37,888 nucleotides of DNA from Phycisphaerae bacterium (GTDB lineage: Bacteria > Planctomycetota > Phycisphaerae > SM23-33): NCBI GenBank assembly GCA_021108335.1, contig JAIORC010000230.1, positions 1 to 37,888 on the forward strand. The letters are read 5' to 3'. Positions 1 to 37,573 of this stretch are shown one piece after another. The position numbers and the translations under genes were made by a program. The notes under the pieces are model-generated. The model saw nothing but the letters and a program-made list of their open reading frames with translations, did not search any database and was not told the DNA's origin. Position 1 is the stretch's first letter; each line of letters opens with the position of its first letter.

Positions 1-306
1 AAACCCCGCGTTTTTTGCGGGGTAGCCATGAAAGATCGATTCACAATTTCTACGCCATATCTTCCTCAAAACCACTCAACATACCATCCGCCGTCGTGTA
101 TCTATTTTTCCCCCAGGGGGCCACCCGATATTCTTTTCTGGGCCATTTTTTTCATGGCTACCCGCCCCCTTCCCTGCGTGGTGGCCTTCCCAGGCCACCA
201 CGGCACGAGCTACAAACCTGCGCCACCAGCGTTAGCGTCGCAGCGGGAACGAAGCGACACCCACTCGGGACGAAAAACACATGGTCCCCTGGGGACCATG
301 CCACCC
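1..306. repeat. Mosaic intergenic palindromic repeat cluster A
   Basis: Contains CCCCGC-gTTTTTT-GCGGGG (4-22) followed by TAGCCATGAAAGATCGATTCACAATTTCT; CCCCCAGGGGG+CCACCC (110-126); CGTGGTGGCC-TTCCCA-GGCCACCACG (177-202); ATGGTCCCC-T-GGGGACCAT+gCCACCC (281-306). Bases 1-51 match 37429-37479 with one mismatch. Confidence 0.85.
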
Positions 307-3824: not shown

Positions 3825-4051
3825 GGGTGCCATGCTTCTGCTTGCAGAAGCATGCGGTAAGAAAACGCATTGGGTGCCGTGGCGGGAGCGAAGCGACAGC
3901 CACGAAAGATAGATACTCGATGGCAGTTTTTTAGACATTAAGGCTTTTTAGAATCCGCGTGGGTGCAAGCACCCACCCTACAAGTGTTGGGTGGCCCCTT
4001 GGGGGATGAATCCGTAACAAACATGCTTCTGCAAGCAGAAGCATGGCACCC
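3825..4051. repeat. Mosaic intergenic repeat cluster B, bounded by perfect 30-bp inverted repeats
   Basis: 3825-3854 GGGTGCCATGCTTCTGCTTGCAGAAGCATG is the exact reverse complement of 4022-4051 CATGCTTCTGCAAGCAGAAGCATGGCACCC. Inside: GTGGC...GCCAC (3879-3903), TTTTTTAGACATT (3927-3939), GTGGGTGCAAGCACCCAC (3959-3976), CCCCTTGGGG (3995-4004). Confidence 0.9.
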
Positions 4052-4119
4052 GATACCTGTAATTTTTGCATGTTACAAAATACCAAGTTACGGAGAATGT
4101 TTTAAGGGAAGAAAGAAAT

Positions 4120-6286: not shown

Positions 6287-6424
6287 CGGGTGGCATGGAA
6301 ACGCCGCATTTTTTTGCGGGGTAGCTATGTCCGTCCATACATAATTTCTACGCGATCCCTCCCCCAGGGGGCCACCCAAAGCGTTTTCTTACCCCATGCT
6401 TCTGCGAGCAGAAGCATGGCACCC
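6287..6424. repeat. Mosaic intergenic repeat cluster C
   Basis: GGGTGGCATGGAAACGCCGCATTTTTTTGCGGGGTAGCTATG, then ...ATAATTTCTACGC, CCCCCAGGGGGCCACCC (6361-6377), GCGTTTTCTTACC, CATGCTTCTGCGAGCAGAAGCATG+GCACCC (6395-6424). Lies between convergent redoxin and feoB. Confidence 0.85.
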
Positions 6425-9635: not shown

Positions 9636-9860
9636 GCGCGGCGGCCTGGGAAGGCCGCCGCGCTAGGGTTAATAGTTTGGGTGACTAGAATTAATAGTTT
9701 GGGTGGCATGGCTTGCTTGCAAGCCATGTGTTTTTGCAGTCTCCCACGATATCGGGTGCCGTGGTGGGAGCGAAGCGACAGCCACGAAAGATAAACATAC
9801 AATGGTGGTTTTTTAGACATTAGACATTATAGTCATTAGTCATTTAGCCCCCCAGGGGGC
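9636..9860. repeat. Mosaic intergenic repeat cluster D
   Basis: GCGCGGCGGCC-TGGGAA-GGCCGCCGCGC (9636-9663); direct repeat TTAATAGTTTGGGTG (9669-9683, 9691-9705); CATGGCTTGCTTGCAAGCCATG (9707-9728); CTCCCACGATATCGGGTG (9741-9758); GTGG..CCAC then CACGAAAGATA..TTTTTTAGACATTAGACATT; GCCCCCCAGGGGGC (9847-9860). Confidence 0.88.
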
Positions 9861-14972: not shown

Positions 14973-15072
14973 CGGCGAACCGCGAAGCAATACACCCCAA
15001 ACACCCCCAACGGGAAAGTATACGGAAAATTTTGCCGGGCGATGGGGGCTGGCATTGATCAGGAGTTGAAAT

Positions 15073-16272
15073 ATGTTGAGAACGATAATATTAATTTGTG
15101 TTTGCGCCTTGTTTTCAGGGTTCATTTATAGTGTCGGAAGTGCTGACGACGTCAAGAAAGCATCTGCGGAAGCCAAATCCCAAAAACCCAAATATCTTTA
15201 TGTGATAAAGGAAACAGACAAGAAAGGCCGTGATAACTATGGTTATATTGACAAAACCGGTAAAGTAGTAATTACGCCGCAATTCAAACAGGCAGGATAT
15301 TTCAGTGAAGGTCTTGCATGCGTCTGTCCGCGGAATATTTTTGGGTCGCCGTGGGGTTACATCGATACTAGCGGCAAGATGGTCATCAAACCGCAATTCT
15401 GGTACGCAGAGGAGTTCAGCGAAGGTTTTGCTGAGGTAACAACAAAAACAAACAAGAAACTGCTAAGTGGTTTTATAGACAAGAAGGGCAAATGGCTGGT
15501 AAAGCCTCAATTCGAGGGCGCGGGGCAATTTAAGGAGGGTTTGGCAAAAATAGCGGTAAAGAAAAACGGAAAGAAACTAATAGGCTTCATTAACACAAGA
15601 GGGAAAATTGTAATTCAGCCCAAGTTTACATACTCCAGCCTAGTATCCTATTTTTCGGATGGAGTTACTCCTGTAGTGATCGGGGAGGAATTCGGGAACC
15701 AATGGGGGGCTATCAACAAGAAAGGCCAGTGGGTAGTAAAACCGAAATTTGATTTTTTTCTGTCCAATTTCAAAAACGGTATGGCGATAGCAAATATTGA
15801 CGGGATGAAAGGCCTTATAGACACCAAGGGCCATTGGGTGATTAAGCCAAAATATTGGTTTATATTATGGTTTTGCGACGGCCTTGCCCCCGTCGGGTTG
15901 GACAAGGAAGACGAATGGGGTTTTATTGACAAGAAGGGCAAATTGGTAATCAAAATCCACGGTGACATAAACCCCCGCTGTTTTTCCGAGGGTCTGGCTT
16001 CGGTTAGCGGAACGGTTATCAACAAGAAGACCAATCTGGTTTACAAGGGTGTTGGCTATATTGATACAAAGGGCAAGTGGATAGTCAAGCCCAGGTATTG
16101 GCGGGCATATGACTTTAAAAATGGGCTGGCCAGAGTGTGGGGATATGGGGGTAAAACGGCATATATCAACAAGAAGGGGAAGTATGTATGGAAAGAAAAA
16201 GGCTGGAGAGAACCAAGGCCATATCGAATGCGAAAGAAGAAAAAGAAAACCCCGGGAATCCCCAAAAAATAA
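15073..16272 (+). CDS. WG-repeat protein, copy 1
   Basis: Repeated YGYIDKTGKVVITPQF..A..FSEGLA units (WG/KWG family); signal peptide MLRTIILICVCALFSGFIYSVGSA; Lys-rich C terminus. Confidence 0.92.
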   Translation: MLRTIILICVCALFSGFIYSVGSADDVKKASAEAKSQKPKYLYVIKETDKKGRDNYGYIDKTGKVVITPQFKQAGYFSEGLACVCPRNIFGSPWGYIDTSGKMVIKPQFWYAEEFSEGFAEVTTKTNKKLLSGFIDKKGKWLVKPQFEGAGQFKEGLAKIAVKKNGKKLIGFINTRGKIVIQPKFTYSSLVSYFSDGVTPVVIGEEFGNQWGAINKKGQWVVKPKFDFFLSNFKNGMAIANIDGMKGLIDTKGHWVIKPKYWFILWFCDGLAPVGLDKEDEWGFIDKKGKLVIKIHGDINPRCFSEGLASVSGTVINKKTNLVYKGVGYIDTKGKWIVKPRYWRAYDFKNGLARVWGYGGKTAYINKKGKYVWKEKGWREPRPYRMRKKKKKTPGIPKK

Positions 16273-16312
16273 GTGCGTAGGTTGGATGTCGGCATTGATC
16301 AGGAGTTGAAAT

Positions 16313-17503
16313 ATGTTGAGAACGATAATCTTAATTTGTGTTTGTGCCTTGTTTTCAGGGTTCATTTATAGCATCGGAAATGCTGATGACGTCAAAAAAG
16401 CATCTGCGGAAGCCAAATTCCAAAAGTCCAAGCATCGCTTTCTCATAAAGGAGGCAGACGAGAAAGGATTTGAAAGATATGGTTATATAGACGAAACCGG
16501 AAAGGTTGTAATCAAACCGCAATTCAAGTATGCGGCACATTTTAGTGAGGGGCTTGCAAGTGTTTCTTCGCGAAGCGCCCTTGGAAGTGGGGGGGGGTAC
16601 ATAGATACTAATGGCAAGATGGTCATCAAGCCAGAAGCCAGGCAGGCATGGGAATTCAGCGAAGGTTTCGCTCCCGTGCAAGTTACTGAGGGACGCCATG
16701 GCAAGACGAAGTGGGGTTTTATTGACAAGAAAGGTAAATGGCAGGTAAAACCTCAATTCAAGGACGCGGGGCCATTTAAGGAGGGCTTGGCAAGAATAGG
16801 TGTAAAGAAAAACGGAAAGATGCTAATAGGTTTCATTAACACAAAAGGGGAAATTGTGGTTCCACCCAAGTTTACAGATACCTGCTTGGTAACCTATTTT
16901 TCAGACGGAGTAACACCGGTTGCTGTCGGCGAAAAATGGGGTTTTATCAACAAAAAGGGTCAGTGGGTAGTAAAACCAAAATTTGATTTTCTATCCAATT
17001 TTAAAAACGGTATGGCGATAGCAGCCATTGGTGGAAAACAAGGCCTTATAGATACTAAAGGCCGCTGGGTGATTAAACCAAAATATTGGTTTATATTATG
17101 GTTTTGTGATGGCCTTGCCCCTGTCGGGTTGGACAAGGAAGACGAATGGGGTTTTATTGACAAGAAGGGCAAATTGGTAATCAAAATCCACGGTGACATA
17201 AACCCCCGCTGTTTTTCCGAGGGTCTGGCTTCGGTTAGCGGAACGGTTATCAACAAGAAGACCAATCTGGTTTATAAGGGTGTTGGCTATATTGATACAA
17301 AAGGCAAATGGATAGTCAAGCCCAAGTATTGGCGGGCATATGACTTTAAAAATGGACTGGCCAGAGTTTGGGGATATGGGGGTAAAACGGCATACATCAA
17401 CAAGAAGGGCGAGTATGTATGGAAAGAAAAAGGCTGGAGAGAACCGAGGCCATATCGGATGCGAAAGAAGAAAAAGAAAACCCCGGGAAAACTCCAAAAG
17501 TAA
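16313..17503 (+). CDS. WG-repeat protein, copy 2 (tandem paralogue)
   Basis: Same leader GGCATTGATCAGGAGTTGAAATATGTTGAGAACGATAAT and near-identical 3' portion as copy 1. Confidence 0.92.
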   Translation: MLRTIILICVCALFSGFIYSIGNADDVKKASAEAKFQKSKHRFLIKEADEKGFERYGYIDETGKVVIKPQFKYAAHFSEGLASVSSRSALGSGGGYIDTNGKMVIKPEARQAWEFSEGFAPVQVTEGRHGKTKWGFIDKKGKWQVKPQFKDAGPFKEGLARIGVKKNGKMLIGFINTKGEIVVPPKFTDTCLVTYFSDGVTPVAVGEKWGFINKKGQWVVKPKFDFLSNFKNGMAIAAIGGKQGLIDTKGRWVIKPKYWFILWFCDGLAPVGLDKEDEWGFIDKKGKLVIKIHGDINPRCFSEGLASVSGTVINKKTNLVYKGVGYIDTKGKWIVKPKYWRAYDFKNGLARVWGYGGKTAYINKKGEYVWKEKGWREPRPYRMRKKKKKTPGKLQK

Positions 17504-31163: not shown

Positions 31164-31610
31164 CTATATAAAGAATGTGATCTCGTAAGAAAGCAGATCC
31201 TCGGATTCATCTTCCGGAAACGAGACAGTGATCTCCTGGCCGGGAAAATCTCGTTTGAGTTTCGTTTCCCACATATCCTTCAGCTTCCGACCAAGGTGGA
31301 CGACCTGCTCTCGTGTCGGCTCTTCCTTCACATTGGGAAACAGGTCGACAATATGGGTATGGTTCATGACTGCCTGCACGGATGTTTTGTCTCCGTTGGT
31401 CGACTTCATCCAGTCCTGATAATTCCTCTTGTCGATACCAGCAAAGAAAGCGCAACCGTCGTACAGCTCAAACTCCGGCCAGAAAAGCTCAGCATAGGCG
31501 ATTGCGTGCTCGAAATTGCCAACGCACTGCGCCCACGCATCGATATCAATGCCGTCGCCGTTGTTCCACTCGGCGAGTTCAGGAATCAGTTTGTTAATTT
31601 CTTCTGACAT
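31164..31610 (-). CDS. Hypothetical acidic protein
   Basis: 148-aa coding-looking ORF MSEEINKLIPELAEWNNGDGIDIDAWAQCVGNFEHAIAYAELFWPEF; adjacent to and co-oriented with the zinc-ribbon ORF. Confidence 0.7.
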   Translation of the reverse strand: MSEEINKLIPELAEWNNGDGIDIDAWAQCVGNFEHAIAYAELFWPEFELYDGCAFFAGIDKRNYQDWMKSTNGDKTSVQAVMNHTHIVDLFPNVKEEPTREQVVHLGRKLKDMWETKLKRDFPGQEITVSFPEDESEDLLSYEITFFI

Positions 31611-31633
31611 AACATAATAATATACAACACAGC

Positions 31634-31691
31634 CGGTGGCCCCTTGGAAGATAGAATCCGTAACAAGCCCCCTGGGGGGCACTCGGCCGGG
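31634..31691. repeat. Mosaic intergenic repeat cluster F
   Basis: GGTGGCCCCTTGGAAGATAGAATCCGTAACAA followed by GCCCCCTGGGGGGC (31667-31680); shares its left part with cluster B but has a different core. Confidence 0.8.
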
Positions 31692-31711
31692 CATCTTACT
31701 CGCCGGCGATG

Positions 31712-33175
31712 TTACGTTTTGATTGAATCGAGCATAATAACCGCGACGGGGCCGAACAGCAGTACCGGCAGGAATGCGCCCCAGAACTCCGGCAGGCCCA
31801 TATAGCGGCAGATTTGGATGAACCCGAAAAATGCTCCCACCATCAGCAACGCCAGCAACGCCGAGGCTTTGATGTTCCGCTGGCGGGACAGAATAAACGG
31901 CAGCCCCAGCAGCAGCATGATAATGTTGTTGAACGGGTCGGCAAAACGGGTGTATTTGGCCATTCGAACCGCGTGGGAATCCCTGGCCCGTTTAAGCTCC
32001 AGAATTCTCCCCAGTTCCGCACTGCTGGAATAATCCAGCAATTTGCCGGACTGCTCCAATTCCAGTTCACCCTCGGTCAAATCGGTGGCGTGGAACAACG
32101 CCCCTTCCCGGAGTTGCCAATACGCCTTATTCTGCGGCCCCGGCACCCAGAAAGTCTCCCTGGCAACGATAGTCGCCAAAACCCGCTCCTCCTTGCCGCG
32201 GAAGTCGAATTTCGGATTTTTCAGTGTATGGGGAATTACTTTTCCGTCTGCGCCCCTGGTGGCTGCGGTGAATATTTCCGCCTGGATATTCATGTTGAAG
32301 TGCTCATCATATCCGGTAATGTTGTTGGCTTTTTGGACAATGGTATTTGGCTTTATTGTAAAAGCGGGGTCTTTTTCCCGCTCTTTTTTCACGTATTTTT
32401 CGAGCGCAATTTCGTTTATCTGCTGCGGGCCTATAACGGTATAAATTTCCCCGGTTGTCTGGATACTCCTCCAGGCTTCCTGCCCATAGCTCTTGGTGCG
32501 TGAAATTTCCGCCTGCTCCGCCAGCCAGCCGTTTCGTCGTTCGAACTTCGCCGGGCGTGCGCTAACGGCTGTTATATGAGCCAGGTAGCGAAAATCCGGC
32601 GTCCGAAGAATCACCATAGGGTGAATCATCTTGTGAGTAGCGGGATCGAACCACGGCGAATACCACACGGAATTATTGCCGTCATTGATAAACCGTACTT
32701 GGAACCGCTCGGTTTTCTGCGGGTCGTCCGGGTCGATAATCAACTCCGAACGGACGTTGGGGATTATGAATTCCCGGTCGATTACGACCAAACCGCTCAG
32801 TAGTATCGATATGAGAATAATCGGCCAAACCACACGATGCAGACTCATGCCCGACGCGAGCATCGCCGTCAATTCGTTGGTGTGATTCATGCGGGCGACA
32901 CTGAACGCCGCCGCCAGAACGATAATAATGCCCCCCAATTCACTGAAATAAACAAACGTCTGATGGGTATAGTAACTGAGCATACACATCACCATCGCGC
33001 CGAAAGTATAGTCCTTGCCCGTGGCGGGATCGGTCAGTTCCAGCATCTCGGAAAATTCGTCGATGTTGACACCGAGGTCCCCCACCACGCGAATCGCCAT
33101 CAGCGCAATGAAACACATCAGCAACGCCTGTAAAAACGTGCGTAGAATATATCGATCAAGGGTCTTGACTAACAT
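31712..33175 (-). CDS. LptF/LptG (YjgP/YjgQ) family permease
   Basis: MLVKTLDRYILRTFLQALLMCFIALMAIRVVGD, central periplasmic domain, C-terminal TM block FADPFNNIIMLLLGLPFILSRQRN. Confidence 0.85.
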   Translation of the reverse strand: MLVKTLDRYILRTFLQALLMCFIALMAIRVVGDLGVNIDEFSEMLELTDPATGKDYTFGAMVMCMLSYYTHQTFVYFSELGGIIIVLAAAFSVARMNHTNELTAMLASGMSLHRVVWPIILISILLSGLVVIDREFIIPNVRSELIIDPDDPQKTERFQVRFINDGNNSVWYSPWFDPATHKMIHPMVILRTPDFRYLAHITAVSARPAKFERRNGWLAEQAEISRTKSYGQEAWRSIQTTGEIYTVIGPQQINEIALEKYVKKEREKDPAFTIKPNTIVQKANNITGYDEHFNMNIQAEIFTAATRGADGKVIPHTLKNPKFDFRGKEERVLATIVARETFWVPGPQNKAYWQLREGALFHATDLTEGELELEQSGKLLDYSSSAELGRILELKRARDSHAVRMAKYTRFADPFNNIIMLLLGLPFILSRQRNIKASALLALLMVGAFFGFIQICRYMGLPEFWGAFLPVLLFGPVAVIMLDSIKT

Positions 33176-37119: not shown

Positions 37120-37294
37120 GCCTTGTAGGGATTACCCGCGCAGGGAAACCCCGAGTCCGCCCATTCGGTAAACGGGCATTGCAGAAACACATGGAGACCT
37201 CAAAAACCCCTACTCCAATAGAAACTTTATGATACCAATTCGCCCGAAGCGAATCTCACGGGAATTTTTTTTGAGGGAACTTTGGGGAATTGGC

Positions 37295-37573
37295 GGGTGC
37301 CATGCTTCTGCTTGCAGAAGCATGTTTGTTACGGATTCCCTCATAACCATCGTCGTTGGGTGGCATGGTCCCCAGGGGACCATGGTTGTTCGATACTGGG
37401 CAATTTCCCACGATGTCGGGTGGCATGGAAACCCCGCGGTTTTTGCGGGGTAGCCATGAAAGATCGATTCACAATTTCTGTGTCTATCTTTCATGGCCAT
37501 CGGCTTCGCCGCTGACCATGCCACCCGATATCGTGGGAGGCAGAACACGGCTTGCAAGCAAGCCGTGCCACCC
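37295..37573. repeat. Mosaic intergenic repeat cluster H
   Basis: GGGTGCCATGCTTCTGCTTGCAGAAGCATG (37295-37324); CATGGTCCCC-A-GGGGACCATG (37364-37384); CCCACGATGTCGGGTGGCATGGAAACCCCGCGGTTTTTGCGGGGTAGCCATGAAAGATCG (37407-37466); CATGG..CCATG+CCACCCGATATCGTGGG (37492-37537); CACGGCTTGC-AA-GCAAGCCGTG+CCACCC (37546-37573). Confidence 0.9.

Follow-up and report, generated by a model that had tools for sequence, protein, structure and literature searches.

A REP/BIME-like mosaic with a GGGTG[G/C] tag and exchanged hairpins in a Phycisphaerae genome

The composite at positions 31634-31692 of the window (the whole 37,888-nucleotide stretch of DNA analyzed, from an uncultured Phycisphaerae bacterium) is very probably one copy of a REP/BIME-like mosaic that carries a GGGTG[G/C] 5' guide tag and descends from the ends of RAYT genes. 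The hairpins of this mosaic occur singly, as inverted pairs, and in arrays, and small transposases appear to spread them (Table 1). That this REP/BIME-like system is real, and that it belongs to a RAYT clade distinguished by its tag, is well supported. The tag, the cores, and the linkage to RAYT genes are directly demonstrated, as is, from copies compared within one genome, the replacement of one tagged hairpin by another between otherwise matching flanks.

The preliminary description held that 31635-31666 and 3990-4020 share their left flank and linker and then lead into different palindromes. Re-reading of the sequence bore out both left parts, together with the inverted recurrence of the joint at 37301-37338. 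The first stretch is directly abutted by GCCCCCTGGGGGGC (31667-31680), and the second is followed by a single A and then by CATGCTTCTGCAAGCAGAAGCATG (4022-4045). The left arm of the 31634-31692 copy is worn (CCCCTTGGAAG versus CCCCTTGGGGG in its sister), and its right tag reads GCACTC, not GCACCC. Single-strand folding of 31634-31692 was no better than that of shuffled sequences (z +0.97), and z reached -3.2 at 3988-4052 and -3.5 at 37294-37340. The same composite is better kept at C55:9947 and C22:5090, and L074 and L075 are intact sisters of the worn left arm. Positions 31635-31680 are bounded by a likely gene start at 31610 and by the stop of an LptF/LptG-like gene at 31712, although in its longest possible ORF the first gene would include them. 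BLAST searches of the locus against relatives returned matches in 35 of 60 genomes, all outside the genus. A search for loop-free palindromes of at least 14 bases gave 2, which is not above chance; it missed the hairpins because these have loops of 1-4 bases. Elsewhere in the window, short TTTTTTAGACATTAGACATTA-like repeats are found near some arrays (3924, 9806, and 28236), two adjacent ORFs at 15051-17503 (399 and 396 aa) are tandem duplicates with internal repeats, and a MutS2-like gene is present whose best named matches come from MAGs of Phycisphaerae or Planctomycetota.

Table 1. Tagged hairpins and linker copies in the window, including the parts of the composite
Feature	Position	Strand	Evidence or remark
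GGGTGG-tagged CATGGTCCCC hairpin	280..306	-	
GGGTGC-tagged CATGCTTCTGC hairpin	3825..3854	+	
GGGTGC-tagged CGTGGCGGG hairpin	3872..3904	+	flanks match L016:19690 and L084:223, both with TCAGCGGC
GGGTGG-tagged CCCC/GGGG hairpin	3989..4006	+	
Linker copy	4008..4020	+	exact match
GGGTGC-tagged CATGCTTCTGC hairpin facing linker	4022..4051	-	
GGGTGG-tagged CCCC/GGGG hairpin	6354..6377	-	
GGGTGC-tagged CATGCTTCTGC hairpin	6394..6424	-	
GGGTGG-tagged CATGGCTTGC hairpin	9701..9728	+	
GGGTGC-tagged GTGGCGGG-class hairpin	9754..9786	+	
Left REP-like arm, tag GGTGG and worn CCCC/GGGG hairpin	31635..31652	+	sequence, intact sisters, folding
Shared linker GAATCCGTAACAA	31654..31666	+	exact matches, genome contexts
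Right hairpin GCCCCCTGGGGGGC, swapped core	31667..31680	+	sequence, genome contexts
GGGTGC-tagged CATGCTTCTGC hairpin	37295..37324	+	
Linker copy	37326..37338	-	exact match
GGGTGG-tagged CATGGTCCCC hairpin	37358..37384	+	
GGGTGG-tagged CCCGCG hairpin	37418..37458	+	
GGGTGG-tagged TCAGCGGC hairpin	37492..37526	-	
GGCTTGC-class hairpin, CACGGCTTGC form	37546..37573	-	

The 13-base linker GAATCCGTAACAA is found three times in the window, each time without a mismatch; when as many as 2 mismatches are tolerated, shuffles average 0.66 matches and 4 of 100 reach 3. Across the 3.78-Mb genome, 10 exact copies were found, against 0 for the reversed control. When the core downstream of these copies was tabulated genome-wide, as the preliminary description had proposed, 6 of the 10 right-side contexts, sorted by eye, were CTTCTGC-type (CATGCTTCTGC; two of these hairpins are decayed) and 4 were CCCC/GGGG-type. 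The core thus differs among the copies instead of being invariant elsewhere, and a reading of the window's composite as a single aberrant locus fails because both hairpin types stand to the right of the linker. At up to 3 mismatches the sampled loci contain 212 matches, many of which must be due to chance, and 27 of them have a recognised hairpin next to them on one side or both. Nine linker copies could be classed by script on both sides, and all four left-right combinations are present (GCGACACC-CTTCTGC, 3; GCGACACC-CCCC, 2; CCCC-CTTCTGC, 2; CCCC-CCCC, 2). The sequence TTCGTTACCG, which lies beside the RAYT-side hairpin, is similar to the reversed linker TTTGTTACGG, and this similarity suggests the RAYT leader as a possible source of the linker.

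The genome was sampled in 32 stretches of 20 kb besides the window itself (677,888 bases in all). This sample holds 146 hairpins with stems of at least 9, the majority from a few families, and 158 GGGTG[G/C]-headed modules in eight core classes, modules and classes alike being defined by custom regular expressions. The tag is GGGTGC throughout the CTTCTGC class (23 of 23) and the GTGGCGGG class (28 of 28) and GGGTGG in five other classes; the CCCC/GGGG class is mixed (6 GGGTGC and 15 GGGTGG among 21). Instead of the GT[AG]G guide of REPs, GTGC abuts the hairpin foot in the CTTCTGC and GTGGCGGG classes, and because of this departure the hairpins are filed as a REP variant. They are short and high in copy number, as REPs are: GGGTGSCATG-to-CATG searches returned 493 matches (control, 0), and the CTTCTGC core, counted as exact matches, is present 162 times in this genome, twice in one of the 34 other genomes of the family, and not at all in the remaining 33. 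A neighbor lies within 250 bp of 112 of the 158 modules, in the orientations -- (23), +- (22), ++ (16), and -+ (12). REPs and linker motifs are thus combined in arrays of alternating orientation, the arrangement of BIMEs.

Exchange of cores beside a constant linker is widespread. Script-sorted linkers yielded five frameworks that are identical in both upstream and downstream linker and carry two cores each, with break points at the tag and just past the hairpin foot. Of 12,270 module pairs, counted without modules 400 bp or less apart, 64 are matched in both flanks, 33 with the same core and 31 with different cores, although these pairs are non-independent because array copies are related. An earlier tally (99 different, 48 same) counted neighbors of one array and is superseded. 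The clearest cases are the unlinked arrays at L022:14513 or L021:15840 versus L087:11956, with flank scores of at least 60/80 on each side around differing hairpins (GGGTGGTCCCCTGGGG or GGGTGGTCCCCTAGGG versus GGGTGGCATGGTCAGCGG...). The CCCC/GGGG class, which could partly be a shortened form of other hairpins, takes part in 27 of the 31 different-core pairs. A stricter, class-free hairpin caller, which misses this class, gave 4 different-core and 12 same-core pairs in the same genome. What is exchanged is the tag end and the hairpin together, not the palindrome alone, because the last base of the tag is fixed in seven of the eight core classes.

The preliminary description had gone further and proposed that linkers and cores assort independently. 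Exchange beside a constant linker stands, given the four combinations above, but independence does not: core class is tightly coupled to the downstream linker (2.10 bits; null mean 0.51, maximum of 2000 shuffles 0.77; 88 of 158 modules), for which the word is too strong. Only the upstream side is near free assortment, at 0.74 bits against a null of 0.46 (maximum 0.76; 51 of 158 modules). Another genome of the family, G015, also holds many tagged hairpins with several cores, and 0 flank-matched pairs were found among its 162 modules (374,351 bases chosen around tagged-hairpin matches). Exchange is therefore no general consequence of possessing such RAYTs. Tagged multi-core REPs are therefore a common property of the clade, whereas shared linker frameworks with exchanged cores belong, of the two genomes compared, only to that of the window.

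Y1_Tnp was found at seven places in this genome. Two of the proteins, L052 (104.9 bits) and L053 (180.9 bits), exceed the cut-off of 80 for NF047646 (NCBIfam REP-associated tyrosine transposase), and L052 matches the TnpArep structure 4er8. H70, H72, and Y149, which we take to be the HuH motif and the catalytic tyrosine, are invariant in 16 aligned rows. The C207 RAYT lies between two inward CTTCTGC hairpins on one side and a single one on the opposite side, and its 56% identical paralogue at C13 has inward GTGGCGGG hairpins on both sides. At C267, a CTTCTGC REP is followed by the beginning of the RAYT frame and then by a second, inverted CTTCTGC REP; this short derivative is an internally shortened element. 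The RAYTs at C170 and C213 are flanked by GTAGGCCGGGTC and CACAGGTT hairpins, respectively. A linked RAYT was found for only two of the eight core classes in this assembly, which is 91% complete.

Several other arrangements were seen at the RAYT loci of this genome. At L053 (G000:C170), a GTAG-tagged GCCGGGTC hairpin is joined to an AGAAGGC/GCCTTCT hairpin that is itself present in 11 copies in the 678-kb sample. The RAYT with CACAGGTT hairpins at L124 (G000:C213, minus strand; also L051; 89.5 bits to the family model) lies within a single 968-residue open frame shared with a second protein that looks like a leucyl-tRNA synthetase, and because both occupy one frame a REP-RAYT element seems to have inserted in frame in leuS. 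L049 (G000:C89) encodes a RAYT-like protein of 387 aa with a C-terminal DnaA C-terminal helix-turn-helix domain, and a partial second copy of its C-terminal part is found nearby.

RAYT homologues were identified in 27 of 35 genomes of the family (E <= 0.001). Inward GGGTGSC occurs within 250 bp on both sides of 14 of the 17 best family loci and on at least one side of all 17, compared with 4.7% of background windows. Of 13 weaker loci, one (L113) is tagged in this way, and it resembles a fragment of a member of this clade. Of 392 genomes searched across the phylum, 46 gave a match at 1e-30; tags stand on both sides of 17 of the 29 loci read, on one side or more of 26, and on neither side of 3. 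These are RAYT genes delimited by inverted REPs, in which the tag is constant and the cores vary between loci. Clade rows were picked by sequence similarity, not by tag. In a tree of 52 rows, the 46 clade rows stand apart from six GTAG-type rows with 100/100 support; the long rows L050 and L051 were left out after spoiling a 54-row version, as were eight fragmentary or remote rows (L113-L120), of which only L113 is flanked by inward GGGTGSC on both sides. A G-x-G-Y-D-R-like motif is found in 45 of 46 clade rows and none of the six GTAG-type rows, and the reverse holds for WQxxFxEH (0 of 46 and 6 of 6). GTAG lies immediately 5' of a flanking hairpin at five of the six GTAG-type loci, all except L111. 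The motif aligns to W99-E100-H101 of 4er8, a region described as reading the GTAG guide in the available text of PMC6006769. As judged from this alignment, the predicted guide-reading motif is altered in the clade. In other genera, RAYT genes at L095, L104, and L107 lie inside tandem arrays of a single hairpin family.

In the mosaic reading, the CTTCTGC hairpin is the end of one RAYT gene and the GTGGCGGG hairpin that of its paralogue, and where two inverted hairpins are joined by a short linker, as in hairpin-GAATCCGTAACAA-hairpin, the pair behaves as a non-autonomous element. We infer that such pairs move, and that RAYT proteins read the tag and stem foot on single-stranded DNA, cut beside both, and rejoin the ends, so that REPs of different RAYT lineages with one tag in common can replace each other. 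The same product could arise by template switching or recombination between shared tags and feet. It is quite possible, if short of probable, that slippage, template switching, or gene conversion between tags (GGGTGS) and feet (CATGG/CCATG) made the exchanges with no transposase, the RAYTs having merely supplied the original copies. The many closely neighboring modules provide abundant short direct and inverted repeats for such events, and exchange was seen in this array-rich genome and not in G015; the break points at the tag and past the foot, however, are also the expected cut sites of a transposase and fit either route. More tentatively, and on balance doubtfully, RAYTs of the GGGTG[G/C] clade may themselves perform a cassette exchange, in which they would recognise the common tag and stem foot and swap one REP in place for that of another RAYT lineage. 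If true, a constant linker framework would be repeatedly re-equipped with new hairpins.

That no exchange took place, and that separate REP insertions built each composite beside a constant linker serving as target, is improbable. The near lack of association between core and upstream linker would suit such insertions, but a hairpin, in some cases decayed, stands to the right of all 10 exact linker copies, so that no free target is seen, the two-sided flank matches are too long for repeated independent assembly, and the downstream association is strong. Least probable of all is a role of the hairpins as ordinary transcription terminators, or as RNA structures kept for gene expression, with neutral turnover of the cores, because, although TGTTTTTC lies 3' of the hairpin in GGCTTGC (19 of 23) and GGTCCCC (13 of 16) modules and could end transcription there, no terminator-like site was found at 31400-31900, the Rfam families in the window are tRNA only, and RAYT linkage and dispersal would be left unexplained. 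Terminators, Rfam families, and the linker as an insertion target were all considered and found unsupported.

How RAYTs spread REPs has so far been hard to test. In a clade whose tag stays invariant as the hairpins change freely, the part that is read (tag and foot) can be told apart from the part that is free to vary (the core), and array copies that differ solely in their hairpin are natural before-and-after pairs. REP/RAYT biology is thereby extended through the Planctomycetota, and to a tag that does not fit the published GT[AG]G consensus.

Like the BIMEs and REPINs of Escherichia coli, Pseudomonas, and Stenotrophomonas, the mosaic has short hairpins, linkered inverted pairs, arrays, and RAYTs between inverted copies. 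In the parts of the literature available, hybrid BIMEs that combine the REPs of two RAYTs and BIMEs that have captured the 3' end of a RAYT have been reported (PMC2817692), and REP doublets are given as the mobile unit (PMC3116915). Unlike BIMEs and REPINs as described there, eight unlike cores share one extended tag here, and one tagged hairpin is found in the place of another where both flanks match. The GTAG- and CGTC-tagged REP super-families, members of which are reported from Planctomycetes, likewise bear a tag at one hairpin end, but the tag here is GGGTG[G/C]; GTGG is a known GTAG variant, and GTGC is not among the variants given in the text available (PMC3733652). The TnpAREP subclasses of the 2018 TnpAY1 survey share the RAYT protein and REP flanks and, in subclasses 2.5 and 2.7, changes of E100 to D and H101 to R that the present clade also shows in the alignment to 4er8. 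Their canonical tag is GT[AG]G, or CnGA in class 3, found in Planctomycetes, as far as the available portion of that survey goes (PMC6006769), in contrast to GGGTG[G/C] here. The letters GGGTG occur 0 times in the accessible text of PMC6006769 and of PMC3733652, and neither the GGGTG tag nor in-place hairpin replacement was found in the REP/BIME literature covered, which includes PMC3686654 but not most subscription papers. Hybrid BIMEs are thus already known; the clade with the GGGTG[G/C] tag and the in-place exchange of hairpins look new.
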